From assembly GCF_030253575.1 (NCBI RefSeq), contig NC_080562.1, positions 24,889,352 to 24,953,351 of the forward strand: a stretch of 64,000 bases of DNA. Reading direction: 5' to 3'. Shown here piece after piece: positions 11,701 to 63,634 of this stretch; the first letter of the stretch is position 1; each line of letters begins with the position of its first letter. The DNA is from Rhododendron vialii (lineage: Eukaryota > Streptophyta > Magnoliopsida > Ericales > Ericaceae). Under the pieces are notes generated by a model that was not told the origin of the DNA, searched no databases, and saw nothing but the letters and a program-made list of their open reading frames with translations. The translations under genes and the position numbers were made by a program.

Positions 11701-13090
11701 GTAGTTGTAGCCCTTAAATTACGTTCTTTTCTAGAAGTATTGATGACTAGCTAGCTTCCAATAGAGTAGTAAAAAGTAGGATCAGCTATCCTACGGAACC
11801 ACTAGACTCGGGATTTTATCTAGTAAGTCAAGGACTGAGGTAACCCTTACCGCAACAATCGCACTACGGATTTGTAATGCTCCATAGTGAGGTCTTTCGA
11901 GATATTATCATAACGATCTGAACCATATATTTTGTCATAGTTTGCCAACCACTTTATTTCTTCAAAGAATTACGGTTCATCGGACATTTATAACCACATG
12001 ATCGAGAGAAATTTTTGTCCCAGTTCATTCTCTAAATCACACTAACCATCAATTATTGAGAAACACTCGTTGTCCGATCATGTTGTTATTAATATCGGAT
12101 CAAAACTTGCTTTTCCAAACAAGTGCTCAACAAGCTCTATAAGATCAATGATTCAGATCGTGATAATACAAATCCAAAGGAACTTTATGTCCCTATAAAA
12201 CGGATGTATATATGGACCAGATTTACTTTAAGAGGGTCATGCCAAAATTGATGATCTACACATACACCTGATTTTTGAATAAAATATCTGGAAAAAATTT
12301 CTTGTTTCTTACCATTACAGAATATTGATTGGTGCTAATTAAGAAGAAAGAATACCTTGCAAAGGGAGAGAAAGAGGTGATCACGAGGACTTGAACTCCC
12401 AATCCCAACATCAGGCTTTTTCTCTCCAAAGAATTCCTTAATGGCTCTGTGCTTCACAACCAAACCAGGCCCACAAATCAGTCCAGTGAAATACTGCCCC
12501 ACAGTGTGCAATTCAGTCCCTACAACATCACCCACACCCAAATACTCCTTCAAGAACCCCTCCACCATAACCCTTGGGACACTAGTGAAAACAACCCTGT
12601 TCCCAGTTGAGGCCCAGACCTCGTACACCTTGGGATTGAGATTTTCAAGGTAGAACTTGGGCAAAACAGCCCTACTGATCCCCTCCATGTCCTTCACTTT
12701 AAGCCCACAAAAGGTGATGAAGACCATTGCCCTTAGTTTGAGCTCATAGTCCAAAAGAAACAGGATTGGGGAGGATAGGAGCAAGAGGAGTGCCCTTATG
12801 ATGCTACCACCTTCAAAGGCAACAAGCATGAAATAGGGGAAGAAAGACTGGGAATTTGCTAACAATGTGTTTTGGATGTCACAAACGAGTGTTTGGGACA
12901 CCCTGCCCTCCAAATCGCCACATTTGGTCAAGTTTGGGTATGGAGGAGGCTGTGGAGGTGATTTGAGAGATGGGTTTTTGGAGAAGAAGCCATGGTTTCT
13001 CATTTTCCTTTCTCCTCTGTGACATGAGTTGGCCAAAAGATGGTACAATAGCCAGTCCAGTAGCTTGAGAAGCACTGTGGGAAACACCAT
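8757..13090 (-). CDS. GPAT1: GPAT1-like glycerol-3-phosphate acyltransferase
   Basis: Spliced minus-strand CDS of three exons: 13090-12356, 10243-9745 and 9157-8757 (544 aa). Phases join cleanly, with GT-AG at both introns. Land-plant GPATs of this family transfer an acyl group to glycerol-3-phosphate at ER or mitochondrial membranes. The closest fit is the GPAT1 clade, from the start [16 protein letters not shown] and the block [18 protein letters not shown]. Acyltransferase motifs are intact: HRTLLD (His355, Asp360), [10 protein letters not shown] and PEGTTCREP (about 418-426). The N-terminal HAD-like phosphatase motif reads DIQNTLL (Asp71): the second Asp of DxDx(T/V) is Gln, so phosphatase activity is doubtful. 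Hydrophobic stretches near 85-115 and 290-320 fit membrane association. The start is the first ATG; a TATA box and a GA repeat lie just upstream. GPAT1 of Arabidopsis acts in tapetum and pollen development; that role here is inference. Confidence 0.93.
10449..10826. mobile_element. foldback hAT-like MITE in GPAT1 intron 1
   Basis: This 378-bp inverted-repeat element has left end GGGGCGATTTCGGAGAC and right end (reverse-complemented) GGGGCAGCTCCGGGGAC. The arms match over most of their length. It is the same family as 52914-53283 in the MEI2-like gene. Flanking T runs obscure the target duplication. The 14-bp string CACTGTGATAGTAG occurs on both sides (near 10424 and 10846). Confidence 0.8.
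11205..13012. repeat. right copy of GPAT1 segmental duplication
   Basis: The intact gene's exon 1 (from residue 30) and much of its intron 1 correspond to 1-2446. This copy lacks the two MITE insertions and the extra 61-bp unit, so it better preserves the ancestral intron. Confidence 0.9.
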
Positions 13091-13113
13091 GGTTTTGTTC
13101 TCTTGTGGGTTGA

Positions 13114-13118
<5 letters not shown>

Positions 13119-13157
<39 letters not shown>
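13119..13157. repeat. (GA)n microsatellite in GPAT1 5' leader
   Basis: Pure GA repeat about 30 bp upstream of the GPAT1 start codon. It is read as (CT)n in the sense of transcription, a common form of plant 5' leader. Confidence 0.95.
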
Positions 13158-13159
<2 letters not shown>

Positions 13160-13190
13160 GGTTATGAGGAGAGGAAGGGGTGCAGAGAGA

Positions 13191-13197
13191 ATTTATA
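13191..13197 (-). promoter_or_regulatory. candidate TATA box of GPAT1-like gene
   Basis: The minus strand reads TATAAAT about 100 bp upstream of the ATG at 13090, with a CT-rich stretch in between. Position and sequence fit a TATA box with a short 5'UTR. No transcript data were available. Confidence 0.6.
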
Positions 13198-14475: not shown

Positions 14476-17406
14476 TTTTCTGTAATTTCCTCGGCTATCT
14501 AGTTTTTTTTTTTTTTTTTTAATCCGCTCCTCGGCTATCTAGTTGCATGAGTGTTTTTCGTGCACGCAGTGCTCTTTATTTAGAGTGCATAGTTTTTTAT
14601 TATTATTAATGAAGAAAGGTTTTCTATCATTAATAAAAGAAAATTTCTAAAATCAATCCAATAGGCTGACAATAATAAATGTGTGAATGTGTATTAAAGG
14701 GTGCAAAAAGTACACATAATTACGTATTTTCCTTGTTTTCTAGTGTCCTTATCGTCAGCCCAGTGAACTGACAATAGCAAGACCGTTAATAAAAATAATA
14801 CAAACAGAAATCTTGTAGTGATACACCAAGGAGTATCAGTGCATCATGCAAGAAGGTTACTCCTCACCTATCACTACACCTCACCAAAGTGCGTACGTAG
14901 TTGGTAAAGGACAGTTTTCATAAGAAATCTCGTTAATAGTGCAACTACCATAATTACAACTATTCATCGAGAACTTGCATGCGCATGTTATTTGACTCGT
15001 TTGTGTGCAATAGTTTTTTTTTTTCCAATTGTATTAGATGCACCCGGTGGATTGTTATAATCTATATATTATCAATGAAGTTCTTACGCAGATTAAAAAA
15101 TAAATAAAGTTCTTACCCTTCCAATAAAAATCCTTGATGCATTAAATATGAAACCTTTGAAGAGGTACGTTATCCCATAACTTGTTTCAGAAGAATACAC
15201 CTCATGCTTGATTGCTTTAATAAATGGATACTGATCCCATAACTTGTTTCAGAAGAATACACCTCAATTATTTTTTTAAATTAAAAGTGATGTATTATGA
15301 TAGACTGACATGTACCAAAAATCAAAAAAATAAATACTTAAAAAATAAAAATCTTAACGCGGAACGAGACCTTAACTGATGGAAACGATAATACTCTCCC
15401 ATAAATTATTCCCTCGTAAATTACTCCCATTTCAAGCACACAATGGTTTTGTTGGGATCTCAACAGTATTTCACCAACAAATTTAAGACCACTTCCCCAT
15501 CTCCATTTACCAAGACAACCATATAGACCAACAGAAGAAGGCAAGCTAGACCCATGCACCATGTGAAAATGGCAGATTTAATTCAATATCCGAATGGAAT
15601 CTTTTGATCATAAATTCAAATTGATCTGCAAAATCTTTCTGTTTTTTTTTTTTTTTTTACTACTACTCTATTATGTTTTTTGGTTCTCATGAGGCAGTCA
15701 AGATTCATGCATTTCTTGTTAACAAGTTGGTGAACCCGCAAATCATTTCATGTATGTGGATGTTTGATTATCATGCATAGGATTCGCATGCGGCATAAAG
15801 TGTTTGAACACGCACCTTTTGTGTCTTTTTCCTTCCCGAGTTTACTATAGCACGCTAAAGAACGACTTACGTATCCAATTAGTTTCCAATAACCACACAA
15901 AGTTCATGGCAACTTAACTTGAAAAGGCCTTGTAAATTTTGTTCGGATTTTAACAACTAGCTAGTAAATTGGTACTCGAATTAAATTAGGCTGCTGATTT
16001 TGGCATTTCCTTTTTTTGTTAACGGCACTCCCCTGCAAGTGTATTTTTTGCACTAAAAATATATTTGCAGAGGAGAGTCATTAACAAAAAAAAGGGAGTG
16101 TCAAAAAAATACTAAAAAAATGTATAAATAATACAAGGAAATATATCACCTTTAGAGGGAACTATAAGGAATTTCTGTTAATCCCTACACAAGGAAATTA
16201 AAGCCTCGGTATAAATAATACTCCATCTGCTCACCTTTCTCTATTCCTTTTTCAAAAAATGTGCATTTTCTCGAGGAATAAAATTGATGTAATTTTTATT
16301 TTTTTTTGCACTAATCAAAAGATCTAATTGAGTTTATACATGTTGATTGGAGCCAAAAAAAAAAACAAAACTTTGAAAACTTAGCCACGAAAGTGTATTT
16401 CTTTATTCGAAAATGTAGTTTAGGACCAACAAAAAAAGAACGGATGGCGTACCTATTTCTTCTTGATTTCCTCAGTATTTTTGTGACATTACCTGTAACG
16501 CCCTAAGCAAATCACTGGCACAATACCTTAATTTTAATTTACAAGCCACACCACATGATCAAAAATATGCTTAAGCCCGAGTGGTAGCTGGCTTGACTAT
16601 GAAAAAAAGGACAAAAGAAACCCTACGCACAAAGTCAAAACCTCATTTGAAAGCCAGTTGCAAAACATGCACAACACAGGTGACAATGGGTCTTGGTATG
16701 ATCAGCCAGGGGGCCCCACATCCTTCAATATTTCAGTTTCAGTCTGTGTTTGCTTGTACATAATATCATGGGATAAAATCCCTATCCAAGATCTCAACTC
16801 AACAACTTCATGCCTCTGGTGTGGTTGGATTAAAACAAATTTAAGGGCACCAAAGGTGGAATAAAACTTTATCCATGTGTAGCATTATTAGTCATCTCAG
16901 GACTAGAGGAGAGAGGTGAGATAAAATTTGGCACGCAATCCAATAGTTAGATACGACTGGCCTCACTTATCTTACCATAGTTCATTCATTTCTCACTACA
17001 AGAAATCATGTACCTTCAATTTAGTACCGTGGGATGTCTATTCTAGCATTAGTTTTTTTATTTTTTTAAATGCAAAATGTCTTGAGCCAACTTGCGTGCA
17101 TTTCGAATTAATTTTTATAATATCTCCCACAGCCGTTTCACACGTTTACGCGTGAAGGGAAGGTGGCGCCCCCAAAATTATTGGCAATGAAAATCAAACC
17201 TACGATCTTAAAATGAAGCAAACACCTAAATCTTAAATTAAAACCATTTAGCGAACCTCTTGGGATTATTCTATCATTAGTTATCCCCTTGTAATCCCGT
17301 TTCACAAACCTATTGGGATTCCCAAACTCGTACATTCTTAATTTAGACGGTAATGTACGTAGCCAAAATTCATATGACAAATATAGAAAAACCTTCTTAG
17401 GTAGTA
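14476..17406. other. intergenic, no gene recognised
   Basis: AT-rich sequence with poly-T runs near 14503-14520 and 15642-15658. A 30-bp direct repeat (GATCCCATAACTTGTTTC core) recurs near 15170 and 15235. A small hairpin element is listed separately. None of the short open frames shows a domain. Confidence 0.5.
16000..16106. mobile_element. small palindromic element
   Basis: Arms such as TTTTTTTGTTAA (16011-16022) and TTAACAAAAAAA (16081-16092), with CACTCCCCTGCAA paired to TTGCAGAGGAGAGT. A hairpin of about 105 bp, consistent with a short MITE. Confidence 0.55.
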
Positions 17407-17638
17407 CTTCCTCTGCCTCACTTTAAATGTTTCCTACAAAAATTTATGCAATTTCAAATCCCCAAAAAATAGTATAGTTTTACATATTTTTATTTTTATT
17501 TTCATATACTAAATTGAAGTGTTCATTGAGTACTTTAATTTGGTGTACGAAAATAAAAATAATAATACGTAAAAATATGTTTTTTGTTTGAAAATGTATG
17601 AATTTTCGTAGGAGACATTTAAAATGAGACAGATGGAG
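17407..17638. mobile_element. Stowaway-like MITE
   Basis: Terminal inverted repeats CTTCCTCTGCCTCACTTTAA and CTCCATCTGTCTCATTTTAA (right end reverse-complemented), 232 bp, flanked by TA on both sides (17405-17406 and 17639-17640). This fits a Tc1/mariner-type Stowaway element. A second family member is at 35203-35417. Confidence 0.85.
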
Positions 17639-18080
17639 TAACAATATACCAATCAAAACCCTGAGGGGGTACGAGAAAGGAAACAATTAAGCGTTTGTCC
17701 TTCGTGAAGTCGCATGTCCGAATCTCATGCACAGACACCAACACATTACAAACTTTGGGGCCACTAGAGGGTTTGTTTAACTATAAGGCCCCAAAATTAG
17801 CAGAGGTGCCCGCAAAATGGCCCGCACATCTAGTTATAAAAACAAAACAGTATCTCCAATCAATGATGTCAGCATTTTTGTACTACTTTATGTAAAGTGC
17901 ATTTTAATGCAATTTGTTGCAACCAGATTGAATAGTGTGAGAGAGATAATATATGATGTCAAATTTATCACTAAAAGTAGCACAATGATGCCATAGGTGT
18001 AACAGAAAGTAGCGCAACGTTATTTCATGTGCTCAATTTGTTACTTCACCTAGCTCACAATGTAAATAGTTCTATGAGTA
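17639..18080. other. intergenic, nothing recognised
   Basis: Short stretch between the Stowaway MITE and the nested transposon complex. No feature could be supported. Confidence 0.5.
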
Positions 18081-19810
18081 GTAAATTTCACTGACCTCGA
18101 TTTCTGACATATGCAGAGACTACCCCGAGATTTTTGAAATTATACTGTCCTCCTTTACTTTATAACCTATTTTCTAGATTCCCCATTTCGTTAACTAGAG
18201 ACTAACGCTGTTAGATTTTGGCTACTAAATGATTTAAATACCCCCCAAAAATTAGATACACTAAAGAACCAAGTCTTCTTGTTCTATTTTTCTTCAAATT
18301 AAAATTTTTAATGTTTGATTAAAATTAACTATCTATATTTCATCGAAGTCAGAAAAAAAAAAATATGTGTCTCGGTTTTTACTTATTTTTTTCGTGAAAG
18401 AAACCAATGTAATTTGTCATTCAACTCTTTTATTAATTTTTTTTGTTATTGAATTTTGCGATTTTATGTTCAAACAAGATTAGACTTTTTTTTTTTTTCC
18501 TCGGCAAACGAAACGATTTTATTAACTCAAAAGGGGAACATCAAGGGAAAAAACAAGAGTGAGTCAACACTTACTCACCTACACAACAAAGAAAGAGCAT
18601 CCAACCAAAAGTTAGAAGCAACAACACCTCAAAGACAAACTTAGAGCTTCAACTTACGGATTCCACCTAGAAAGCTCCTAAAATCCTCCACCGAATAAAC
18701 CTTGATGTCAAACTTTGCTTTCATCCACATAGCCACCCTTGTCTTGACTAGCTCCCCAACCTCACTAGCAGACCTTCTAACATTGTTGAAAATGAGGTCA
18801 TTTCTCGCAAGCCACATAGACCACAAAGTAGCAAAGAATGTCACCTTCCAAATGAGCCTTTCCAAATTCCGAAAACTATTGCCAAACCACCAACTTGCTA
18901 GGTCTGCCAAAGATGGAGGACAGACCCAAACCAACTGCCACCATTGCTTGATAATCGACCAAATGTGCCAGGAAGACAAACAGTGCAAAAATAGATGCAC
19001 AGGGGTTTCCTCAAGGAGAGAACAAAGAGGGCAAAGAGGCAGTTGTCCCTCTTGGATCATATTTCTGTGTGCAAGAATTGATCGAGTAGCCAGCCTACCT
19101 TGTAAAGCCAGCCAAGATAAAATTTCTACTTTTGGTGGACTTAGGTTCTTCCATAATGACCCCAACACCTCATCTCCAACGTGGACTTCTTGCTCCCACT
19201 GTCCATACAAAGATTTCACTGAGAAACATTTATCTGCTGTCCATTTCCACTGCAGCGAGTCCTTTTTGGATGAGTCCAACACTATACCATGCAGCCTATG
19301 TTGCAACTTCTCCTCTTGGCATTTTTCCCAATCATACAACCGTCTCCCAAAAGTTAAATTCTATGTGCCAAAACCACCCTCTTCCTTCGTATTGCTAATC
19401 GCTTGCCCTTTTTTAGTAGAAATCAAATAAAGTCAGGGGTAAACTTCCTTGAGTGCTACATCTCCTAACCAAACAACGTCCCAAAACAAAGTTTCCTAAC
19501 CGGAGCCCACTTGCACTTTAAATCCCTCTTGAATTATAGGACCAATAGGCAAAGAGGCAGTCCCAATGGAGCAAATATCTCTCCATAGACTCGAAATCTG
19601 TCTAGAAGCGGGGAGATGGGGAAGCCAACATCCCTAGTCCAGATTGTACTTCCCTCGAATAACCTTCACCCACAGTGAATCCTTGTTGTTACTAAACCTC
19701 CACCACCACTTTGCAAGCAACGCTAGATTTTGAGTCTTCAGATTCTTCACTCCCAACCCTCCATACTCATTCCTCTTGGCAATTACATGCCATTTCACCA
19801 GGTGCAGTTT

Positions 19811-20008
19811 TGTAGAGATCCGAAAAATCTAATTATTGAAAATGCTTATTAAATGCCTAATTGGAAAAATATGGTTTATTGGGTGATTATTTGAATTGAG
19901 GAGTGAAGTGAGAGAATAGAATTTTGAGGGAGTGTGAGTGTGAGTGTGATATAAAGATATAGGGATATATAAGGGATGGGTGTGTGTGTAGAGAATCATT
20001 GCATCACC

Positions 20009-20084
<76 letters not shown>

Positions 20085-21753
20085 CGTTCTCCCTCTCTCT
20101 CTTGGTTGATTCTCTCTCTATCTCTCTCTCTCTCTCAAAACCCTTCCAAGACCTCAAGAACCTCAAGAATCAACCTTCTCTCGACCTTCCTATCGCGTTC
20201 TTGAGCTTGAAAATCCTCGGGTCAAGCTTGGAGCGAAGCTTTGAAGTTCAAGTAGGCTAGGGCTTGCTCAAATCTCATAAATCTTGGTTTTCGTCGCGAG
20301 GTAGGGACTTCTTTACCTTTTTTATGTGTTTATATGTTGATTTGATGTGAACATCAAACATTGATCGTCCCTCTTCATTCTCTAGAAAGCTATCAAAAAA
20401 GTGCAGAAATTGCCCAAAATCGCCCAAGGATCGATCCCCCAAGCAAGAGGGATCAATCCCTCAACTCAAAACTGGATTTTTAACCTAGGGGATCAATCAC
20501 CGTGAGAGGAGGGATCGAGCCCTCCCCTCACTGGAAATTCTGCTCGCCTTCTGGGTTTCAGCCCAACTTCAAACAGCCATAACTTTCTCGTCCGATGTCC
20601 GATTCATGCAAACTTTATATCAATTCGAAGGTCTTGAAGTCAGCTTTCCATTTCCATTAAAATCGTCTTAAGACTCTTAGTACACAGAAAGTTATGACCA
20701 TTTGAGTGGGAGTATGTCAGTCTACCATCATTTGCTAGCTACCCCTAAGATTTTCGTTCTGTCGTTATGACTTTCTATGATTAGTGGATGTTATTCTTGA
20801 CCCATTGGCCTTCCGAACGAGTAGGGAATTACTTGGTTAAAACTTCATTTGAATGCATTCTATTGATTGTTGGTACTTGTGAATGTCTATGGCGCATTTG
20901 TGATAACGTTGGCATAATGTATGATGTCTCATCTATGATTGTGATCATGGGGGAATCCTAACTCGCATATTGTATGAGAAAGTAGTTGTTTAGGTCGGAA
21001 GTTGGTTTAGGGAGTCTTGTAACACATGGGGTGGTAATACAGAGACTCAAATGGATCTCGTAACGTAAGGGGTGGTAATATGGTGATCCAAGTTGTTAAG
21101 GTTCTCTGTAACGCAAGGGGTGGTAATACGGTAACCCTAGTAGTGTCGTACGGTATCACAAGGGGTGGAGATTGGTGAAAAAGAGTCATGTCAGAACTAC
21201 TAAAGTCGCGTGAGTATTATGAACAATGTGGCTAATTGGTGATACCGGCATGTGTTAGAACAATTGTTGTGAGTGATTGGCATCTCTTTGAGTTAATTGC
21301 CATCTACAGATTGAACCATACATTCATGTCTTCATCCTTTGCACTTATCATCATGTTTTCATATAGAATTGGTAAAGATATTCCTATTGGGCTAGTGTAG
21401 CTCAACCCAATCTTTCTTTTCAGGTTCAAACGCTGGACAATAGATTGCATACATCTTGTGCTTGGATGTGAAGACTTTCTTTGGAAGCTAACTTTATTAG
21501 TTACTTAATCATCTTTGTAATTGACTTTCTTTTGATAAAGATGGATTTGTAACTATTCATTCAAGAATTTCTTTTGACTAAACATTTTCTTTCTGATAAC
21601 TTTTTCGTACTTGTACTTAGGCTTAATTTGGGCTGGAGTGCCAATGTTGTAAACTCTTTAAACTTGGAAACTCTTTTGGGTATTATTATAGTTATGCGAG
21701 GGTCTTTTATCAAAATGGATTATTTATTTATGTTGAAAATTGAGGGCATGACA
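19811..21753. mobile_element. solo LTR A inside LINE ORF2
   Basis: A 1943-bp element beginning TGTAGAGATC and ending GGGCATGACA (TG...CA ends), flanked by the exact 5-bp repeat AGTTT (19806-19810 and 21754-21758). No gag-pol or second LTR is present, so it is a solo LTR, probably of a Gypsy-type element by its ends. It carries a 70-bp CT microsatellite at 20012-20081 and short tandem GTAACRCAAGGGGTGGTAAT units near 21020-21140. Confidence 0.9.
20012..20081. repeat. (CT)n microsatellite in solo LTR A
   Basis: 70 bp of CT repeat, with further CT-rich sequence to about 20136. Confidence 0.97.
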
Positions 21754-22222
21754 AGTTTCCTCTTATCAACCGAATCACCCCAGAAAAATTGTCTCTATAA
21801 TATCCAGTGTTCTAAATGGCAACCTCGGCGGCCGCCGAGGAGCTTGGAGGTACCCCACCGCCACGCCAATACCCTTCGGCGTTTGATTTGGTGCCCAGGG
21901 AAATTTGGCGGTGTTTGGCAGCTATTTGGCAGCCGCCTAGACGGCCTTGGCGGACCTTGGCGGCGTCTTTGGAGGCCAAAATTGTATACTATTAACTTAA
22001 AAGGGCTAGGATCAAAAGTGCAAAAACTAAAAGGGCTTATTATGTAATTTTACAAAATCATATCTATATATATTAGAATTTCATTTACATCCCCATTCAA
22101 TACTCCTGTCACTCCACACTCTAGAGCTTCAGAGGCGGAAAGTGAAGAACTCCAGTCGACCAGAGCTCCAGTCAACGCCATCGTCTCTCTCTCCCGCCGA
22201 TATGTCTCTCTCCCTCGCTGTG

Positions 22223-22223
<1 letters not shown>

Positions 22224-22266
<43 letters not shown>
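22224..22266. repeat. (CT)n microsatellite in hAT
   Basis: 43 bp of CT repeat in the 5' region of the hAT element, upstream of its transposase. Confidence 0.95.
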
Positions 22267-22268
<2 letters not shown>

Positions 22269-22894
22269 CCTCAGAAGAGTTGCTCTCTCTCTCTCACTCT
22301 CTCTCTCTCATAGTGATTTGCCTGATTTATAGAGCTTTCAGAAGTGTACATACCTGATTGAGTTTTTCTGAAATTTCTGTATTTCTGATTGAGTTTTTTT
22401 TTTGGTATTTAAAAAAAAACAGATTGTATAACGACAAATAGATTGTAAAAAAAAAAACAGATTATGACAGATTGTAAAAAAAAAAAAACACATTGTATAT
22501 GAGTATTTCTGATTGAGCTTTCAGAACTCAGAAGTGTTGTATTAGTATTTAGACTGACGATGAGGGCCTGTTTTATTTTGTTTTGTTACTTTGACTTGTG
22601 GCTTCTGTTTTTCATCATAGTAGCAGTTCCTGACAAGAGTGAGAATTTAGATATGAGCCAAGTTCTGTGAAATTTCAGAAAGGCTATGTACCCAGAATTT
22701 TCCTCAACATGCTCAGAAAGTTAGCTGTATGATGCATATTCGAAGCTGGCTGCTTTCTTTACTTGCCTTCTTTTTGTTTCCTTCTTATTCCCTTGTGTAC
22801 GTGGCTGCTTAATTGTGATTCTATGATGAACTTTGACTGCATCAGTGCATTGTATAACTTGTATAGTTAAATTTAATGTGTAGGCCTATTGTAA

Positions 22895-25465
22895 ATGTCT
22901 CAACCAATGTCTCAATCTCAAAATATATCTTCAGCGGCCTCTAATGCCGCCACCGATAATTCAACAGCCCTTAAAAGAGCATCAAATGATATGGGATGGG
23001 AGTATGGAATACTAGTGGATCCTACGAATTTTGGATAAAATACAATGCAAATTGTGTGGTAAGATTATGAGTTCAGGGATTAGTAGGCTAAAAAAACACA
23101 TAGCTCAAATTAAGGGGTCTGTTTCCTCTTGTCCTAATGCAAGCAAGGAAGATATAGCCAAGTGTAAAGCGGCAGTTGAAGAGGGAAGTAAGAAGAAAAA
23201 AGACAAGCTTCAAGCGGCCTAGGAGATTAGAAAGAAAGTGACTATCATAGAAGAAGAAGATGGTGATGAGGAAGTTGATTTCATAGGGACAAGAAAGAGG
23301 CCCTATACTCTAGGTCCCATGGATAAATATGTATCGGATATCAATCCTGGGAAGAAGATGACGTCGGGACAACAAACCATAAGTGCTACACTTTTGAAGG
23401 CTAGAAGTGAGAAAGTGAAAAGTTTCTTGGCTCGATGGGTGTATGAAGCCGGTATCCCATTTCATGCCATTGACAATAATAGCTTCGCTCAATTTTGTGA
23501 AGTGGTTGGTCATTTTGGCGTGGTCTACCAACCTCCAAGCCAATACAAATTAAGGGAGCCATTGTTGAAGGCGGAAGTGGAGAGAACCAAAAAATGTCTC
23601 AAGAAGCAAGAGGAAGAGTGGGCTTCAACGGGTTGTTCTATTATTACTGATGCTTGGAGCGATCGAAAGAGGAGAAGCATCATGAATTTGTGTGTCAATT
23701 GCAAGGAAGGGACTACTTTTCTTTCTTCTAAGGAAACTTTGGATGAGTCGCACACGGGGGAATACATCTTCAACTATGTTGACAAGTGTATTGAAGAGGT
23801 TGGGCCAAAAAATGTAGTTCAAGTGGTGATGGACAATGCATCAAATAACATGGCTGCGGCGGAGTTGTTGAAGGTCAAGAGGCCTAACATCTTTTGGAGC
23901 TCATGTGCCACGCACACCATACACCTTATGCTTGAAGGAATTGGTAAGCTACCAAAATTCAAAGGAGTTATAGATAAGGCAAAGGCCTTTACTATATTTA
24001 TTTATGCTTACCATACGACTTTGGCATTGATGAGAAAAGCTACCAAAAAGAGAGATATAGTGAGGCTGGGTGTGACTAGATTTGCAACATCTTTCTTGAC
24101 TTTGAAAAGTTTGGCGGAGAAGAAAGAAGCCTTGAAGGTAATGGTTACTAGCAATGAATGACCGGGGAAAGAGTAAATGGGGTCCTAGTAGCACAAAAGG
24201 GAAAACACCATATGCTACCGTGCTTAGTATATCATTTTGGAATGGTGTAAGTCTATGCTTGAAAGTGTTTGCTCTCCTAGTGAAAGTGCTTCGACTTGTT
24301 GATGGGGACCGTCCCTCAATGGGCTTTGTGTATGGAGAACTACAAAAGGCGAAACAAGAGATCATAGAGGCATGCAAATCTAAAGAGGCCCAATTCAAGT
24401 CGATATTAGATATCATTGATACAAAATCTCAAGGTCGGCTAGATAGTCCATTACATTTGACGGCTTATTTGTTGAATCCTTTTTTCTTCTATAAGGATCA
24501 AACCATTCAAAATGATTCAAGCATCATGGAGGCAGTTGTTGAATGTGTTGAAGGATTCTATCCAGAAGATGTGGATGCCCAAGATTATGTCGTCAATAAA
24601 GAGTTGTTGATGTACAAGAACAAAGTAGGTATGTTTGGAAAAAATGTGGCCCTTCGCAGATGTGAAGCAAACAATGACAATTATGATCTGGGTAAATTAT
24701 GGCATTTTTTACGCTTCTTAGTTCTTCATTTAATTTACTAATTACTAGTAATGTTAGTAGTAAGTTAGCAACTTCGTGCAAATAGAATTTTAAGTTGTGT
24801 TTTTTTTTTTACATGACTAGTTGGTTAGTGGGCTAATTATGGCAACTCTACACCCAAATTGCAAAGAATGGCTATGAGAATTCTCGCTTTGACTTCAAGT
24901 TCATCCGGGTGTAGAGAAATTGGAGCACCTTTGAGGGGGTAAGTCCATATACTTTTCTCTTCATCTCTCGCTCTTATAGTAATTTAGTAGCTTGAAATTA
25001 TTATTAAAGGAGAAATGGCATGGATTTTTTTATGTATAGATACATACAAAGAAAAGGAATAGACTAGATGCAACAAGGATGAGCAATCTAGTGTACGTCC
25101 AATTCAATGTCAAACTCATCAACAAGAAAGCAAAGAAGAAGGAGAAAGATGTCCTACTTGCTAGCGAAGCAACGTATGCACAAGGATGGATTGTTGAAGG
25201 TGGTGATGATGATGAAGTTGAGCCGGGTTCAGGACTTACATATGAGTTGCTTGCCACCACTATGGGAGTGGATGAAGTCTTTATGCCAAGAAGAAGTGGT
25301 AGAAATGTTGGAGTACGTGAGCCGCGAGAGCTACATGAAGAAGATTTTGTATCAGAAGATGTCTCCGAAGAGGAGGAAAATGAGGAGATTGACTTTGAGT
25401 CTGATGGAGATCAAGTTTTGGAGGGGTATGGAGGAGAAGAGATAGAGGAAGGAGATGAACTTTGA
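22895..25465 (+). pseudogene. hAT transposase (BED finger, DUF659), broken
   Basis: The frame opens at the ATG at 22895 (MSQPMSQSQN). A 1-nt shift near 23028 precedes the BED-type zinc finger (IQCKLCGKIMSSGISRLKKH). An in-frame TAG sits at 23220-23222, after which the frame continues. The DUF659 domain covers about 23440-24150, with ITDAWSDRKRRS, VVQVVMDNASNN and CATHTIHLMLE. A frameshift and stops near 24155-24173 follow; the next block (SISFWNGVSLCLKVF, LVDGDRPSMGFVYGE) is in another frame to about 24690. After an apparent intron the dimerisation region reads ANYGNSTPKLQRMAMRIL and SSSSGCRENWSTFE. A clean GT-AG intron at about 24938-25039 joins it to IHTKKRNRLDATR, and an acidic tail ends at 25465. 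Such enzymes cut and paste hAT elements; this one cannot make a full protein. Confidence 0.9.
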
Positions 25466-28250
25466 ACTTGGCATTAGGGATCTTCGATCTCGTTTATTTC
25501 TACTTATTGTCTTATTCAACTTATTTACTAGTTGCTACTACTTAATTTCATTTGGGTTTGTACATTAAACTTTGTATTATGGTTATGTAGAACTTTGAAC
25601 TTGCATTATGGATACATAGAATATAGTTTGATTGGATAATGGTTTGTTAAAAAAAAACGCCGAATTGCTTGGCGCCGCCTAGGCGACTTGGCGCTTGGAG
25701 GTGGGTCTCCGCCCTGCTAGCGCTAAGCGCCATTTAGAACATTGTAATATCTCAATTGACTGTGCTACAGCCACAAGCATCTTGAAAATAGACATGAAGT
25801 AGATAGGGAGGTGACCAAAATTTGAATTTAACAGAGTAAGACGACCACCCGAAGAATTAAATCTCCTACTCCATGCACTCAACTTCTTACCCATCCTGTC
25901 CAAGATTGGTTCCCAAGTTTTAATTCTTTTCAGATTAGCACCCAAAGGCAACCCCAAGTATTTGATTGGCAATGTCTCAATTTTACACTCCATCACGAGA
26001 GCAAAATCTTTCACATCCTGATCACAAATCTTAACACCACACACAGAGCTTTTGGAAAAATTAATTTTCAAGCCTGACATGAGCTGGAAATATCTAAGAA
26101 CCCTTTTTATATTAGCCAACTCCACTCCATCGTTATTGCAAAAGAGAATCATATCATCCGCAAATTGAAGATGAGATAAGATAACTCCATTAGCCCCGAT
26201 CTGAGTTCCTTTGATTATATTTAGTGCTCTGGCTCTTTCCAACAAAATATTCAAGGCTTCAACCACAATATTGAAAAGAAAAGGGAATAAGGGATCCCCT
26301 TGCCTAAGATCTTTCTGAGACTCCCTAGTAGCAGACCCATTTATAAGAACAGACATTGCTATAGTAGACATGCATTCTTTGATCCATCCACACCATTTTT
26401 CACCAAAGTCCATTTTCACATGCAAATCCAGTAGAAAGCCCTAATTCACATAATCATATGCTCTCTCAAAATCAATTTTGAGAATGAGGCCTCCTGTGAC
26501 CTATTTTTCCAGCTATGTATTACTTCATTAGCTATTAGAACACCATCCAAGATCTGTTTTCCCCCAATAAAAGCAGCTTAAGACTCACCAATTATAGAGG
26601 GAAAGTGGAATTTAAGTCTATTTGCCAAAACTTTTGAGAGTACTTTATAGACCCCCACCATACTAATTGGTCTAAACTCCTTAAACCTAGTAGGGCAATC
26701 AACCTTTGGGATCAAAAAAACAAAAGTAGAATTGATACATTTTGTAAGCTTTCCATTGGCATGAAATTCAGAAAAAAAACTGAAATAGTAGAGGCTTGAT
26801 GAAAACCCATCCTTTCCTGATAAAGGAGAAGTTAAAGCCATCAAAGCATGGTGCCTTAAGGCTACTGCATCCTTTTAGAGCTGAGACTATCTCTCCCTCA
26901 TCAAACTGCTTTTCCAAATCAGAAGATACTAGGGGACTAAGTTTTCTGATAAACACCCCTCCTAAAGTAGTTCTAGTTCTTTGTTCCTCTTTGAAGTTGG
27001 TGCAAAAATATTCAACAGCTGCATCTTTAATTTCCTTGGGATTTTCCTCTAATCTTCCATTAGCCTTAATTGAACCCATCATATTCCTCCTAAACCTGCT
27101 ATTGGCCAACATTTGAAAAAATCTAGTGTTTTTGTCCCCCAATTTCAACCAGGTAGTTTAAGATTTTTGCCTCCACTTGGATTCAATCAAGCGAAAGAGT
27201 CTCCAAAATTCAGATTTGGTTTTGCATCTTGAAGTCTTTTCAACCTCGCTAAGTTGTCTCTCTTCGGCTAATAACTCAAAATGGTGAAGCTCAGTTTCAG
27301 TTTGCTGTAGAGCAAGTTTAACATCACCAAAGACTTCCTTATTCCACACTCTGAGCTTATCCTTAACAGCTTTCAACTTTTGCATAATCATAAATCCAGC
27401 TCAACCATCCACCTGAACCTCATTCTATGTATCCTTAGCTAACTTCGTACAACTTGGATTTGACAACCAAATATCCATAAATTTGAAAGGCCTAGGACCC
27501 CAATCCTTGCCATCATCGAGGAGCATAATAGGACAATGATCAAAGATTGGTCTCGGCAAACCCCATTGAAGCACTTTGAAATTTTCCAGCCACTGGATAG
27601 AGACTAGAAATCTGTCTAAGCGGCTGAGGATGGCATGGCCCTGAAAATTAGTCCAAGTAAATTTTCTGCCCAACATTGGAAGATCAATGATTTCCATGTT
27701 GTTACAAAACTCTACAAAATCCCTCATGCCCCTTTCAATCCTCACACATCCCACTCTCTCATTCACGTCTAAGATCTCATTAAAATCACCTCCCACACAC
27801 CACGGAACATTGGAATTTGCTTTACAGTTCAGCAGCTCCTCCCACAGCAACCTACAGTTCACCACGTCATTAGGGGCATACACATTCACAACCACACACG
27901 GAAAGACATTATTGATCAGCCCTTGAAGCAAAATAAAAGATCTTTACACAATCATGTTGTCTACTTTGAAAAAATCTTTATTCTAGAAACACAATAAACC
28001 CCCCAAAGCCCCAACAGCATCGGAGCAAGCAAACTCGAACTCAGAACTATCCTATAGACGCTAGATTGCTATCCTCTCCAAGTTTTCTAACTTTGTTTCT
28101 TGAACCAGAACCATATCAGGTTTCTGTTTTTTAATGAGTTTAAACAAAAATCTTTTCTTGGTCAAACTCCATAATCCTCTAATATTCCAAGATAACATCT
28201 ACATAAAAATTGGAACACCCACACGCAAACTCCAAAAGAGGTTAAGAAAT

Positions 28251-31200
28251 CTAACACTCCACTTCTCTCTCAAGCATTTGAGAGTACTCCAGAGATTCGA
28301 TTTCAATCATTGAGCGTAAAACCAAATCATCATTAAGGTGAAAATTTATACCCAACTCACCTCCAATTTCCATCGTAGCTCTGACCACACGAATTACCCT
28401 TGAACTGCTCTGAGGAGAAACAACAGAGGAGGAGACAGAGTTTTCTACCTGAGTGCGATCCCCATCCACCACCTCATGAATGATAACTAGCTTCGAGAGT
28501 TGTCGCCTTCTCCTTCTCCTGCACTCAGCATCATTTAGGTCCACCAACAGATTGATACTCGAAATTTGAGAACTCCTCACCAGATGAGCTGATTACTCAG
28601 GGTAGCCACCACTTGCCACAAGAGATACATCTAGATGGAGCTCAATCTCAAAACGAGGTCTAGCAGAATCAACTACAACTTCAATGGACCCTAAAGCTTT
28701 AAGGCCTAAAGACCCTTCCACATTAAAAGGCACCACAGGCCCACCAACAGTTAGAATAGTGCTAGCTGCCAAATGGGCTTCCTCGTGGGCCAAAGAGGTA
28801 ACCACATTCTGGCCCACTACACCCAACTCAACATCACCTCTCTTCAAGGCCTCCACAGAGTCCTCGACCACCGATTCAAAATCCCCTGATGGGGCTTGCG
28901 TATTGGACAGCTCAGGCATTAAATGCTTAACTGCAATCTTGAGTTGAGACCCTATAGTCCCATCATGAACCTTGTCTACCCCAAGCACACCTATTATACC
29001 AGCTATACTACCACCAAGACCCCCTATTCTATTGGCTGCTGGGTTTGAATAGGCTTCCACGTCACCATCACCCTCCTTCCCTTCCCTTCCCTTCCCTGAT
29101 TTGAATTTTCGGCCTGCTTCCCATTGGAAGTTTTTTTAGCTTCCTAACAGTACCATGAGCAATAGCAACCACCGAAGAGCAAAGTTCAACCTCCTCTAAA
29201 CTAACAAATGAGGATTCCTCTGTAACTTTAACCTCATAGACCACGCCCTAAACCTCCAACTTGATCCATCTGTCTATTTTTTGCCTCTCCTCTAAAGCTA
29301 TCAGCACCATCCCCTTAGCAAAAGAAAAATCTTTCAAAGTAGCCTCATCCATCGCAATAAAGTAACCCCAAACCTCTCCAATCAGCTTGAAAGTTTGGGT
29401 GTTCCAGGCATTTAGAGGAATTCCTTGGCATTTCAACCAGACAAATCTTTCAAAGCTAGCAGTCTCACCATTCCACGGTTTTACCACTTCAAACTAGAGA
29501 TTCATCCATGGGTCCTTAATAAGTGAGTCCCTAGCTTCTTGGCTTTGAAATATGATAAAGACTGATCTCCCTCCCATAGTCCTGAACTGGGTCTCAATAT
29601 CACTCTCCAAACTGAAATTGCTTTTCAAGGTCGACATAGAAACAACCATGTGCATAACAACCACCGCACTTCTAAATAACCCTTCATTCCCAACAGAGTT
29701 AACCTGGAGAGTAATACTCTGTTCTGTAGAAGGTTTTTTGGAAGATTCCCTTTACAGAGCATGAACGTAGGATTTAGCTGGACCAAACATGCCCCTTGTC
29801 GATTTGTCACAGTCGAGGACATTTATCTCATTAGGCCCAGAAATCAACTGCTTGAGGACCTGCTCAGTGGGAAATTTGGGCAACTTCTGATGGAGTTTTG
29901 CTTCATTGTGGCCAAAGCAAGCTTCCTTTACAAACAGACGATTGTTGTCCACCTAAACCCCATTCATTCTAGTCATTGCCATTCCTGAAGACACATGACA
30001 ATCAAACCTCACAAACCCGAATTTATTACCCGTCTGTTTACTCCTTTTGCTTGGTATAAATGCATCCTTAACCACCCCAAACTTGTTGAAAGTTCTCCGT
30101 AGCCAGACCTGGTCTTTTTCCTCTGGTATGTTGTCCACAAATAGAGTTGTGGGCAGCGTGCTCGGAAAAAAGGGCGAATCGATGAGCGCGCTTTTTTGGC
30201 AGACGAGCGCTCAATTCAGAGTCACCACTTGGGTTTGAAGGTCCGACACCCAAAGAACCAAACTTGAAAAGCTCACTGCGCTGTTTATTTTGAAAAAGGT
30301 GAAGGCACCAGTCCGTCATAACCATATCTGGGTTCGGGAGCCAGGTTACGAGAGAGGAAGGGTTTTAAGGCACCCCTCTCGCCCAATCCGAAGATCGGTC
30401 TCTACTTAAGCATTTGCAAAAACATTTGCGATTCTGTTTGATTAATTAATTCTTTAGCCAATTAGGGTGGGGAAACAGTTAATTGGGGATTAAGACTGTA
30501 ACACTTTGCAAGATGCGATATGAGATGATATATTAGAAAATAAATTAGATAAAATTCAACACTGTGACTGGATATCAAAACAGTGCGTTAGTATGAATTT
30601 GACACAAACAGTGACCAACTAGTATGCATGGATCTGCCAACATGCAAGTCCACCGTCGCGCATCAGACCCACACCATCGCGCGAGATTGATATCCTCCCA
30701 ACAGGGTAAGTTTTATCTCCTTCTAGGCTCTAGAAGGACCAATGCACACCCAGGACAAATCAAGCAGTTCTAAGCAGTTCTAATATACAGTTAAAAGGCT
30801 GAAAAGCCCTACAAATTAACAGATCACCCCGTAAAGAGTGTGGGGACAAAATAATGGCCTAAAGCCAAGCTACCCGCGCAAGGCCAGCCACTAGTCAGAG
30901 GCGCTCTGGAGCGCGAATGTGGCACTCTGGCGCGCGATGGTCGCGCCCTGGCGCAACCAGACCAATACTTGGTTTGCATGTTTCTGGGTTCTAGGACAGG
31001 TCCAGAATGACCCCAGGGGTACTCCATAACAGCAGAAACTCATATTGAACTAAGACTAGTAGTTTATACTAAGGAAAGCAGTAAACTGGTTGTTAGCATG
31101 CTTGCAAATTGATCTATATAAACAAAAAGACAAAAAATAGTAGGAAACCAATCCCCACGCGGTCCTGTGCGCGCGGCCACGGAGTGTCGCGCGCGAGACT

Positions 31201-32174
31201 GGGACCGTCGCGCGCTGGTTCCTACCACAACGGCTTTTGAAACCCTGCCAGCTTTAGGTCCAGAATTGGTATTGATTACCAGCCTTGGCCCTGTCAGCCC
31301 CCTTCAGGGATCAAAACAAAAAACAATAGGTATGTTATACGTAGATTGAGTTTGAAAGAGGTTGAGTTTTGAAGTTTGAAGTTGATTGGGGTGCTTGTGT
31401 TGAGTATTTTGAGAAATGTGAATTTGGATGAAAAACACAAGAGCTTATGTGCTTACTCTTTTTTTGAATTTTTGTAACCCTAAGAAAGAGCAACAATGGG
31501 GGCAATATATAGGAGGAGATGGAAGTTGGTATGAGCTGCAAAGAGGGGAGTTCAGCCAGTCCACGAGGCTGGCTGAGGTTGCATTGGTGGCAAAGTTTCT
31601 ACCTTAAGAAAAGTTGGTAGGGACTGACATTGCGCTCAGGCGCGCGAGGAAGTCAGTTCGACGCCCGATGGAGTCACTCCAGCGCGCGAGAGTTGCGCCC
31701 TGGCGTAATGGTCAATGGTCAAACTTTGACTGTTGACCACCACCTGACAATTTGACCAGCGCGCGATGGTCGTGGAACAGCGCGCGCATGTACCACCTAC
31801 TCACGCGTTGGTCAACGGTCAAGCTTTAACCATTGACCAACACCTGTCAAGTTGATCTGTGCGCACGGGTTCTCAACCAACGCGTGCCAGTAGGATTTTT
31901 GGCTCTTTTGAAGGGGCTCATATTTGGTTAGGTTCAAAAGGGTGTCAAACACTCGACATTCTCGAGGTGTTCTTAATCTGTTTCATCATTGGAGAATCAA
32001 ATACCGTAAGTAAACTAATCTGGAAGCCCAGATTGGAGTGTCTACAAGAGTAAATACCTCCTTGACGCCTGACAACCTTACAACCTGATTTCTGTGATTC
32101 TTAATCACAGGAATCCAACCACCGCCATCTCGGCCATCAACTTTCCTTTTGCCTCTCTCACTCTCTCTCACCAT
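28251..32174 (-). pseudogene. LINE ORF1: RRM and DUF4283-like protein, broken
   Basis: ORF1 starts at the ATG at 32174 with a basic N-terminus (MVRESERGKRKVDGRDGGG). It is cut after FTL by the solo LTR at 30148-32046. Translation resumes with LFVDNIPEE (RNP2-like) and NKFGFVRF (RNP1-like), a complete RRM, at 30142-29953. A DUF4283-like block follows at 29487-29248 (WLKCQGIPLNAWN). A low-complexity linker is open at 29060-28593 and 28580-28251. RRM plus DUF4283-like ORF1 is known from plant L1 elements, where it binds element RNA. Stops between blocks show decay. Confidence 0.85.
30148..32046. mobile_element. solo LTR B inside LINE ORF1
   Basis: An 1899-bp element starting TGTGGGCAGCGTGCTCGG and ending GGAGTGTCTACA, flanked by the exact 5-bp repeat AGAGT (30143-30147 and 32047-32051). 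It has no coding domains, so it is a solo LTR. Its true orientation is unclear. It is unusually rich in GCGCGC motifs and holds an imperfect 100-bp-spaced repeat of GGTCAAYGGTCAA sequence at 31710 and 31810. Confidence 0.9.
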
Positions 32175-33118
32175 TTTTTCTGCAACACTTGTTTAACGTT
32201 TAAACATTTATAGTATAAACAAGATTAGACTTAAGTTATACATACTATGCTCGAACTTTTGAAATTACTTATGCATTTTATATTTTGATAATCATGGTCT
32301 ATTGTTTTTCTCTCTTACTTGTATTTTTAATTAAAAATAAAAGCACTCCTAAATACATAATTCACCATATTAAACATTTATCTTGACATATTTATAATAT
32401 GATTTGACAAAATAAATTCAGTATTAAACATTCTTTAATGATACAAAGAAATAAAAAATATTTTTTTTTACCAAAATATCAATTCCATTCTTCTCCTTTT
32501 TTTTTGCCAAAACCACTATAAAAAAAAAACTTATATGTTGCCTATCAACAACAACAAAAAAAAAAAACCTTATCCATTAATAAACCATTTCAATATGTTT
32601 TTATGATTAATGACTCAAAAACTAATGAAAAATAAAAATATATATATCACATTTTTCTAAAAGATCACTGTGTAAAGAAACATGAGAAATGGAGAAGGAA
32701 CAATTTGAAAAATAAGTCCATGAAAATAAATTCTAATAGTATTGTAAAATAAATACCATAAAATATCTAATCAAATTAAAAAATAGTATGAGAACATAAA
32801 CGCCCTAGAAAATTAATGAAAAAACAAGAACCAATAATTCAATTAACAAAATACTAGTAATCAATATTAGTCAACAAACCCAATTAAAAATGAAATGCTG
32901 AAAAAAATAATAATACATATATAAATAAATATATCAACTTATTTTTTAAGGTTATTTGTGTCATTTAAGAGCTAAATTTAACACCGTTAGTGAGTTAGTT
33001 AATGGAAGGGGGAATCTGTATAATAGTTTCAAAAGTAAAGGAGGAGAGCATAATTTCAGAAACCTCAATGGAGGTCTCTACATTTGTTAAAAACCTCAGC
33101 AAGGTCGGTGAAATTTAC

Positions 33119-35202
33119 CCAAGATTTATACTTTAAGCGTGATGACTGCATTTTCGAATTCATATTTTCGATGAATATGGATAGTTAATATAAGCTTAAT
33201 TTTAGAGTATTCGTTATAAAATGATATCTCATTTTTTGTCATACATCTACTTTATATAATATGAGTTCATGGTTCCGATTTTTTTTAAATATTGTACAGA
33301 AGAATTTTTAAAAATTAAAAGGGTTTAAATGAGCATATATATAAACTAATCTTCCCGTTATTCCAAAAGTAGTCAGTGCAATTTTGCTAGCACTGCAGTA
33401 TGTGTGAGGCCTTAGTCAGTAATTCTTTAGAATCCAATCTATTTCTGCTCTCGATTCTCACTTTATTTTTACACTTTCAATCATCGTTCTCACGAATTTA
33501 GTAGTTTACGATATTATTTCAAAAAAGCTTTCATGCTCGATCTCTCACACACGTATACAAATTATATGACTTCACTTGTGAATGAGAGTGTGTAAGTATT
33601 TCGTGTAGTTGTGTGTGGTTTCAGAGCTATTGGTTACTGGTTAGCATTTTGGGTCCAAAGTTCCACAGAGTAGTGGAGGGCACCAAGAGCATTGGAATAT
33701 TCATCCATGTGTATATTTGGAGCAATTGTAAGCTAGGCTTCCTTTGAACAAACTTTTTGGTATTGTTTTGACTCGTCTTTTTGTTGTTTTCCCTTCAATT
33801 ATACTGGATTTGTTCGACTCGAACAAGGAAAATCAAGAAAGTTAATAAAAATAAAAATTAGACTTAGTTGAAAAAATTGAATAAAAACAACGATGAAGTC
33901 GCTAATCGATTGTCTTTCTGACTATCTTTTAGTGTCTTTTTTTTCATCTTACATGAATTTTTTTTTCAACTTTTGTCTATACTTTTATACCTTTCTGATT
34001 TTTCTCGTCGAGATAAATGATGTGACATAAAACTTATATCCAAATCTAGTAAAAGTAAAGAGAAAATAACAAAAAAGTCACCAAAACTTAGAGGCGGGTC
34101 TGGGCGGGTTGAAACGGGTCGTGAGTTAAATATGAGCGGGTCGAATATGGATCAAAAAAGTAAATGGGTTGAAAAGGGTCAGGTCGAATATGGGTCAAGC
34201 GAAACCCAAACCCGCCCGACCTGACCTGTTTTCTTTTCTTCCCCTCCCCCTCTCTTATTTGTCTCAATAAGGGGATTCAGAAAAGTAAAATTTTATGATT
34301 AAAACTCAATTTTTTTTAAAAATCAGGTTTTTATTTCTTCTTTTTTCCATTTCCAAACAGTAACGTAATTTCGACGAGGAATCAGAGGCCGCATCAAAGA
34401 ATTGTCTGGAAGGCAATGATTGCATCGATTGTACAGCTTCGGTCTTCGTTGCATTCGCCGAAGCCACTGCTTAGGTTTGAATTAATTAAAAAGTTAAGAG
34501 ACTTTTTTTTTGTCTCTATTCAAATTTTTTTGTATTTGTTTATTTTGCAATAAACTTTTTATCCCTTTTAGTTCGTCTCAAGTATCAGGTTTTTACTTTT
34601 TTTCCATTTTCAAACAGTAACGTAACTTTGACAAAGAGTCAAAGGACGCGTCAGAGAATCGTTTGGAAGGCGATGATTGTACCAATTGTATTATTTCGGT
34701 CTTCATTGCGTCCGCCAAAGCCACCTCTACTTTTTTACAAACATCTCCAATAGCAATTCTTTGTTGTGATTTTCCAATTAAAAAGATAATTTTAAACATC
34801 TCTTGTAGCAGTTTTTTATTTATTTTTATTGCTCCGATCAAGATGAATTAATGATTAAGCTAAAGATTATTGAGGCTATCTAAAAAATTTCGGGAAAAAA
34901 CAAGGCGCATTGATTTGATTATAATCATGAATTTAGAATGTAGATATTAGCAACCAAACATCCGGCTGATCGATGAGTCTGGTGATGCAAACTCCTGACA
35001 TCTCGTCCATTTTTATTTTTGTTTTCCGGGAATTTGCATCTCGTCCCTCACTCAGAAACAGCAAACAGAAGTGGAGTAATGAAGGTAATTAAAGGACAAG
35101 GTGGGTATTTTAATTCTAACCCATATAGAACCCATTTTTAACCCACTTATTAAATCCATGTAAATGTGGGTTTATATGGGTTCAACCCATATAAATCCAT
35201 TA
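33119..35202. other. intergenic, with one direct repeat
   Basis: No gene was recognised. The sequence at 34324-34472 recurs at 34586-34729 at perhaps 75-80 percent identity (shared blocks CAAACAGTAACGTAA, GGAAGGC and TTCGGTCTTC). Around 34085-34225 there are loose GGGTCGAATATGG-type repeats. Confidence 0.6.
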
Positions 35203-35417
35203 CTCCTTCCATCCCTAAATAAGTGTCCGGCGCGCAAAACTAGGCCTTACAAAATATGCATGTTTTTCATTGAAAAATTAAATTTTTTTTCACAATCTAA
35301 TAGAACTCATTGCTATCTATTGATTTGTGAAAAAAATTTGATTTTTTTAACGAAACAAATGCATCTTTTTGAAGACCTAGATTTGCACGTTGGACACTTA
35401 TTTAGGGACGGAGGGAG
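35203..35417. mobile_element. Stowaway-like MITE
   Basis: 215 bp with ends CTCCTTCCATCCCTAAATAA and CTCCCTCCGTCCCTAAATAA (right end reverse-complemented), flanked by TA at 35201-35202 and 35418-35419. The CTCCCTCCGTCCC terminus is the classic Stowaway signature. Confidence 0.92.
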
Positions 35418-36325
35418 TATAAAATATGGGTGGATTTGGGCTAATTATAAATGGATGGGTTTGGGTGAAACCATATTACTTGACACAAATTGCCACCTCT
35501 ACCAAAACTTTTGTCTAGCACACAAACTTTAGTCTCAGAACATGGTTTTTCTGAGTGCACCTCAGCTAATTTGGATGCCTGTAATTTGTAATCTTTGATC
35601 AGAATAGGAACTTGATTAGGCGACGTTTGGACTAATTCAGTATCTTCTTCAGGAACTATATATTTATTTTGATTTTTTTTTAAGTTAAACATTTTTTTGT
35701 ATGGATTGAGATAATAATCTAGGATTCTCACGGGGGGAGAAGAATTAGATTCTTACTAGGGAATGGAATTTCTGGTTCAATATCTATATAATAAGCTAGT
35801 ATTTGAATATTATATACTACATAAATTCAAGGGTTCTTATCTTTCCAAACTAATCTAACAGTATCTCATGGGTTAGAGAGAATAGACGTGCTCAACCATT
35901 AAATCAAATATCTCTCTCCCTCTCTCTCTCTCTGTCTTTGCGCGTTTGGACCCCTCCCGACATTTAAAATATTTTAACTAATATTACATGTAATATGGTT
36001 ATTATTTATATAATAAGTATAGCAATCTCTAAAATTATAAATAATTTTGATTTGATCTAGTCGAAAATTAAGGTTATTTTACATTGTCAGGTAAAATTTT
36101 CTCAAATTCTTTCAAATTCAAAAAAAAATCACACATGTGCAATGCAATTGTTGACAATAATGCAAAAGATATTATACCCGATATATTAATATACCACAAA
36201 ACTACACCGTATATTGAGTACATTTTTTCATGAAAATACTTTTTTTATGTTGGCCCCCTTTGGGCTAAAATTTTGGCTCCGTCACTACTCTCATCAGACT
36301 CATCCACTGCCTCTCCTCTCAATAA
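35418..36325. other. intergenic, nothing recognised
   Basis: AT-rich sequence with a short CT-rich tract at about 35910-35935. No gene, repeat family or structured element could be supported. Confidence 0.5.
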
Positions 36326-50473: not shown

Positions 50474-50523
<50 letters not shown>

Positions 50524-50565
50524 TGTGTAGTTAAGTCATGGAAAGCAATTATGGAAGCACTTCAG

Positions 50566-50596
<31 letters not shown>

Positions 50597-62513: not shown

Positions 62514-63430
62514 GCAAATCTTTCGTATTTGTTAAACTGTCTTCTTTGCTTTATTTTGTATTTTTTCAAAAAAAATTTGAGTTCCAATCATAATTTTAAA
62601 TTCCTCTTAGCAAGACGAACTAATAATACTTTTTCATTTAAGCGAACACTTCTAATATGAAGGGATCCAAACAAAATGTGGTGGAGGGAGAAAATGAAAT
62701 TTTGAACATAATGCTCATGAGACGGAAATAATATGTCGAAAGTTGTAGAATCAAAATAAGTGCCCATTGAAAGGCCTAAGAGCCAAAAATCCGTTATGAC
62801 CATTTAAAATAAAATGACCAGAAAATAAGATCTTTGCACCGGTTTAAACATATTGAAAATTAAAACACTTAATTTCTTAACTATATTTTTAATATATAAA
62901 CTATGTAAAAAAAATAAGCGTTCCAATTTTTAATCCGTTTGAATCGGTGCGAAAATGTTTTTTTTTTTGCAAATCTTTCGTGTTTGTTAAACTGTCTTCT
63001 TTGCTTTATTTTGTGTTTTTTCAAAAATTTTTGAGTTCCAATCATAATTTTAAAAAATTTTAAATTCCTCTTAGCAAGACGAACTAATAATACTTTTTCA
63101 TTTAAGCGAACACTTCTAATATGAAAGGATCCAAACGAAATGTGGTGGAGGGTAAAAAATGAAATTTTGAACATAATGCTCATGAGACGGAAATAATATG
63201 TCAAAAGTTGTAGAATCAAAATAAGTGCCCATTGAAGGGCCTAAGAGCCAAAAATCCATTATGACTATTTAAGATAAAATGACCAGAAAATAAGATCTTT
63301 GCACCGGTTTAAACTTATTGAAAATTAAAACACTTAATTTCTTAACTATATTTTTAATATATAAACTATGTAAAAAAAATAAGTGTTTCAATTTTTAATC
63401 CGTTTGAATCGGTGCGAAAATGTTATTTTT
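62514..63430. repeat. 455-bp tandem duplication
   Basis: The unit from GCAAATCTTTCGTATTTG (62514) recurs from 62969 with about 95 percent identity and small indels. Both units contain GCACCGGTTTAAAC and, inverted near their ends, GTTTGAATCGGTGC, so each unit includes a hairpin-forming section. Confidence 0.92.
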
Positions 63431-63634
63431 TTGATCATTTTATCCTACATGTTCATAATAAATTTTTGACTCTAAAGCCTTTCAACGAGCACCCTAAGAC
63501 TTTTTATTTAGTTTTAGAACTCTCTTAGGATGCTCGCTGAAAGGCCTTAGAGCCAAAGAATTATTATGACCATTGAGGATAAAATGATAAAAAAATTAGA
63601 TCTTTGCACCGATTCAACCGGATTATAAATCGGA
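63390..63634. mobile_element. hairpin MITE related to the 455-bp units
   Basis: A palindrome centred near 63510. AATCCGTTTGAATCGGTGC pairs with GCACCGATTCAACCGGATT, and CTCTAAAGCCTTTCA pairs with TGAAAGGCCTTAGAG. Similar sequence occurs inside each 455-bp unit. Confidence 0.75.

Follow-up and report, generated by a model that had tools for sequence, protein, structure and literature searches.

Positions 18081-33118 very likely hold a conventional plant transposon nest, the product of five or more insertions and, if its LTR-like members are solo LTRs, of two later deletions. A degenerate inverted-repeat element contains a decayed LINE with the sequence traits of the L1 type, and the LINE contains a hAT transposon and two LTR-like inserts. 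We read the stretch 17500-34000 and located every duplication and element end named in the original prediction. The three levels it described (outer element, LINE, three inserts) were borne out by the coordinates and duplications in the sequence, and the sizes it gave for the two hosts without their inserts matched those found here (5930 nt for the LINE remainder and 1293 nt for that of the outer element). Throughout, "the window" refers to the whole 64-kb stretch of DNA that was analysed. The members of the nest are as follows.

18081-33118: outer element, a degenerate inverted-repeat element whose own sequence is 18081-18487 plus 32233-33118
18488-32216, minus strand: decayed L1-type LINE, 3' end at 18488 and 5' end at 32216
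18472-18487: LINE target-site duplication, copy 1, AAACAAGATTAGACTT
32217-32232: LINE target-site duplication, copy 2, AAACAAGATTAGACTT
19811-21753: LTR-like insert 1 (LTR1), 1943 bp, TGTAGAG...ATGACA, with duplication AGTTT at 19806-19810 and 21754-21758
21805-25744, plus strand: hAT transposon, 3940 bp, with ends CAGTGTTCTAAATGG and CCATTTAGAACATTG
21798-21804 and 25745-25751: hAT duplication TAATATC, 7 bp
30148-32046: LTR-like insert 2 (LTR2), 1899 bp, TGTGGGC...GTCTACA, with duplication AGAGT at 30143-30147 and 32047-32051

The outer inverted-repeat element

The outermost level was delimited by aligning its two ends in inverted orientation.

18081-18255, plus strand: left terminal inverted repeat, in inverted alignment with 32938-33118
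32938-33118, minus strand: right terminal inverted repeat, in inverted alignment with the left end

These ends are 74% alike over 182 columns (about 180 bp), and their local alignment scores 125, whereas none of 200 base shuffles exceeded 39. The alignment stops exactly at 18081 and 33118, the outer limits originally proposed. Abutting positions were searched for a duplication of 8-11 bp (at most two mismatches) or 3 bp; either end could move by -4 to +6 bases, and in the 3-bp search both moved by the same amount. No convincing duplication emerged from this search. In particular, the only match for an 8-11 bp duplication of the Mutator-like kind was one of 6/8 bases with the two ends unequally shifted.

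Judged by its ends, the outer element may be Mutator-like. It shares long inverted ends and the lack of a recognised coding region with Mutator-like elements and MITEs, but differs in having no convincing duplication and no transposase that we could see. The 74% identity of its inverted ends also falls just under the >75% asked of Mutator-like elements in PMC3903597.

The inverted repeat could instead reflect two related elements that landed in opposite orientation, with the LINE inserted in between. The missing duplication around 18081-33118 would fit such a history, as would ends that are only 74% alike. The two similar stretches nevertheless start right at the outer limits (18081 and 33118, outward-facing) and extend inward for about 180 bp, the pattern that a single element with terminal inverted repeats would show, and we consider the two-element explanation unlikely. 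A single outer element remains the preferred reading.

The LINE

The original prediction placed a 16-bp target-site duplication around the LINE, and AAACAAGATTAGACTT is indeed exact at both flanks. Among 776 non-simple 16-mers with copies separated by more than 5 kb within the 64-kb window, it is the sole one touching 17000-34500. At its 3' end the LINE carries AATAAA followed by poly(A), and its 5' duplication shows the sense-strand site CTT/AAG, similar to the TT/AAAA preferred by the L1 endonuclease. A poly(A) 3' end and a long duplication that varies in length between copies, here 16 bp, are both traits of the L1 clade. Coding remnants were distributed across the LINE, all on the minus strand.

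32052-32174, minus strand: start of ORF1, an ATG and 41 codons up to the LTR2 junction
29935-30144, minus strand: RNA recognition motif in ORF1 (Pfam RRM_1, E 6.1e-14), one internal stop (X in the search)
29332-29589, minus strand: DUF4283 in ORF1 (Pfam PF14111, E 2.5e-9), in the same frame as the RRM, one internal stop (X)
27599-27880, minus strand: endonuclease remnant, L1 EN-like (Exo_endo_phos, E 7.9e-4, under the curated cut-off)
25946-26398, minus strand: reverse transcriptase, C-terminal part of the domain (Pfam RVT_1, E 8.3e-12)
18959-19225, minus strand: zf-RVT near the LINE 3' end (Pfam PF13966, E 4.6e-15)

Both RVT_1 and zf-RVT exceeded their Pfam cut-offs. The top PDB matches of the reverse transcriptase were human L1 ORF2p chains (E 7.5e-15 to 2.3e-14); a "reverse transcriptase-like protein" (1.2e-5) and R2 proteins (2.2e-5 and weaker) matched less well. 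The query for this search, ORF 25679-26440, ends in hAT sequence beyond the matched part. Together with RRM_1 and DUF4283 in one frame, these matches uphold the earlier identification of the element, which by its sequence is a LINE of the L1 type. The endonuclease remnant gave a weak Exo_endo_phos match (19.7 bits, below the cut-off of 24.5) and four weak PDB matches, the best at E 0.22 (LTX) and an L1 endonuclease at E 0.33. A 42-nt leader precedes the ORF1 ATG.

In Beta vulgaris, the plant L1 LINEs of the BNR family (Heitkam and Schmidt, 2009) reportedly carry an RRM in their ORF1. The LINE described here would share with them this motif and the L1-type reverse transcriptase; its own ORF1 has a DUF4283 match as well.

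The stretch from the LTR1 junction to where the 3' ORF ends has five stops, counting the final one, and the frame changes within the reverse transcriptase region; both show the LINE to be decayed. Pfam returned no match for five of 10 pieces searched, including two from the upstream part of the reverse transcriptase region and two from 28251-29135, and none for five of 10 peptides in a second set. In NCBIfam, the reverse transcriptase piece matched nothing but a group II intron maturase, at 28.1 bits where the cut-off is 300, and the endonuclease piece had no match. Searches of non-plant collections confirmed no relatives of the LINE, either among viral contigs (reverse transcriptase piece) or among genome contigs (3'-end piece). 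An AlphaFold model of the reverse transcriptase piece, made without an alignment, had a mean pLDDT of 37 and was useless.

Restoration of the LINE reading frame

The lengths of insert plus one duplication are 1948 (LTR1), 3947 (hAT), and 1904 (LTR2), equal to 1, 2, and 2 modulo 3. Thus, no insert leaves the LINE frame intact. Once each insert was skipped together with one duplication, the frames on the two sides agreed at every one of the three junctions, as the original prediction had held for the rejoined LINE peptides. Around LTR2, the frame is anchored by RRM_1 downstream and by the ATG-headed run of 41 codons upstream. The hAT and LTR1 are anchored jointly, by RVT_1 upstream and zf-RVT downstream, and the 39 nt separating them are anchored by their own peptide alone. 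By frame alone, such register would arise by chance once in nine on the anchors, or once in 27 if the 39-nt peptide is accepted.

At the hAT junction a stop codon follows immediately after the duplication, so this LINE copy was also point-mutated or broken earlier. Extending RRM_1 with the rejoined upstream flank brought no gain (50.9 bits, compared with 52.1 bits without it), because the domain starts at the junction. Pfam had no family for the 86-residue peptide obtained by rejoining across the hAT and LTR1.

The LTR-like inserts

Both LTR-like inserts have TG...CA ends and a 5-bp duplication, and the AGTTT and AGAGT copies originally reported were present at 19806/21754 and 30143/32047. With 25-44 stops per sense frame, the inserts are not LINE coding sequence. 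Their structure suggests that both are probably solo LTRs. A solo LTR lacks the second LTR against which it could be dated.

To place the 5-bp duplications in context, TGT...ACA pairs flanked by such a duplication and 1.5-2.3 kb apart were counted. The window yielded 27 from 17,908 pairs, both inserts included, and the LINE span five from 2,390, two being the inserts. With TG...CA the counts were 303 of 218,492 pairs in the window and 58 of 41,974 in the LINE span. Base composition predicts 1.3 per thousand for TGT...ACA with a 5-bp duplication, or about 23 in the window and about three in the LINE span. As the observed pairs are near this chance rate, the duplications are consistent with LTR insertion but not decisive and add little alone; the case for the LTR-like inserts is carried by the interrupted LINE frame. 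More generally, TG...CA ends with a 5-bp duplication arise by chance often enough in 64 kb that a second line of evidence is needed.

The near-chance frequency of this signature in the window also leaves room for elements of another kind, for example non-coding insertions of no recognised class that truly end a few bases from the positions given here. We regard such elements as very unlikely here, given the TG...CA ends, the 5-bp duplications, a length of about 1.9 kb, and a LINE frame that is restored at exactly these ends. Solo LTRs are the reading that we retain for both inserts.

Each insert also has internal repeats. In insert 1, a 37-mer unit occurs in three spaced copies at 21019-21144 (70-100% identical to the reference copy). 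In insert 2, a stretch at 31709-31839 is 72% self-complementary and adjoins repeated GCGCGCGATGGTCG motifs.

The hAT transposon

The second element within the LINE, claimed earlier as a hAT with duplication TAATATC, proved to have inverted ends, the 7-bp duplication, and transposase domains of that superfamily.

~23.04-23.10 kb, plus strand: zf-BED of the hAT transposase (E 3.8e-5, above cut-off)
23535-23987, plus strand: DUF659 region of the hAT transposase (E 5.5e-59)
~24.8-24.9 kb, plus strand: C-terminal dimerisation remnant of the hAT transposase (Dimer_Tnp_hAT, E 0.002, below cut-off)

The inverted ends form 16-bp arms that are 94% complementary. A signature of 14-bp inverted ends (at most one mismatch) and a 7-bp duplication, 1-8 kb apart, was found once in the 64-kb window, at this hAT. 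Seven bases of the duplication are identical; in an 8-bp register, the size usual for hAT elements, the first base differs (A on the left, G on the right). The transposase frame is broken by an in-frame stop before DUF659 and a frame change near 24150. For the piece 24142-24741, Pfam gave only VASP_tetra, below cut-off.

Plant hAT elements of the Ac-like BED/DUF659 type share with this copy the CAGTG-type ends, the BED and DUF659 domains, and the C-terminal dimerisation region, here a remnant. In contrast to them, this copy has a 7-bp instead of an 8-bp duplication and a broken frame.

Relative order and proposed history of the nest

The nesting makes the LINE younger than the outer element and older than each of its own inserts. 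The original prediction went further and read a strict relative order from the junctions. For the three inserts this claim fails: they occupy separate places in the LINE and none lies inside another, leaving six mutual orders possible. As siblings within the LINE, the two LTR-like inserts and the hAT receive no mutual order from nesting, which orders only elements that contain one another.

A history consistent with these features would begin with an old, non-coding inverted-repeat DNA element at the site, its ends now only 74% alike. Target-primed reverse transcription would then have placed in it an L1-type LINE with RRM and DUF4283 in ORF1, with the 16-bp duplication and the poly(A) tail as its traces. 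The LINE may in turn have received a hAT DNA transposon and two LTR retrotransposons, each at a site of its own, with no mutual order implied. At a later step, both LTR elements would have lost their interiors by recombination between their own LTRs; on the solo-LTR reading, each insert counts as two events, an insertion and a subsequent loss of the interior. The sequence directly shows the coordinates, the duplications, the LINE and hAT protein domains, and the restored frame. We infer the class of the outer element, the LTR identity of the two inserts, the recombination step, and, from the protein families that occur here, the plant origin of the window. Since the LINE and transposase frames are broken, what is left of the nest looks inactive.

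A more novel account would combine an undescribed outer-element family that leaves no duplication with a plant L1 lineage joining RRM to DUF4283 in one ORF1 frame; we judge it highly improbable. An assembly artefact joining unrelated repeats, conceivable in a region rich in repeats, is a negligible prospect, as misjoins would not be expected to leave matching duplications or complementary ends at five boundary pairs, nor an interrupted protein in register.

Comparison with known nests

Nested plant transposons are already well known, and the locus is of a kind common in plant genomes. In maize and rice, nested insertions are present in over one third of the Mutator-like elements classed as candidate coding ones (PMC3903597), and 12 plant genomes yielded 1491 nested LTR-element pairs (PMC6911290). 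In both those clusters and the present nest, elements lie within elements. PMC3903597 likewise omits the insert and one duplication in alignment, and REANNOTATE (PMC2672092) states that nesting level reflects insertion order. Compared with the plant nests in PMC3903597 and PMC6911290, the main host here is a LINE and a hAT is among the inserts, with no difference in principle. The locus is a clean teaching example for reading nested insertions and does not change the view of transposon behaviour.

Other features of the window

Outside the nest, a block is present at 1616-2446 and again at 12179-13009, its core 96% alike. Minus-strand ORFs at 1772-2470 and 12335-13192 each contain a RAM2-like glycerol-3-phosphate acyltransferase HAD domain, and in the flank the similarity, of 3-1197 to 11207-12168, is weaker. 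The block is probably a tandem gene duplication.

On the minus strand, 48767-55143 carries exons that we take to resemble a MEI2-like RNA-binding protein gene; one of three pieces matched, with RRM_1 just below cut-off.

A fold-back stretch occurs in two copies (10450-10816 and 52948-53281) that are 82% alike, one of them 70% self-complementary, and is probably a MITE. Self-complementary stretches (78-89%) at 61974-62379, 63380-63641, 35201-35419, and 1244-1592 are probably further fold-back elements.
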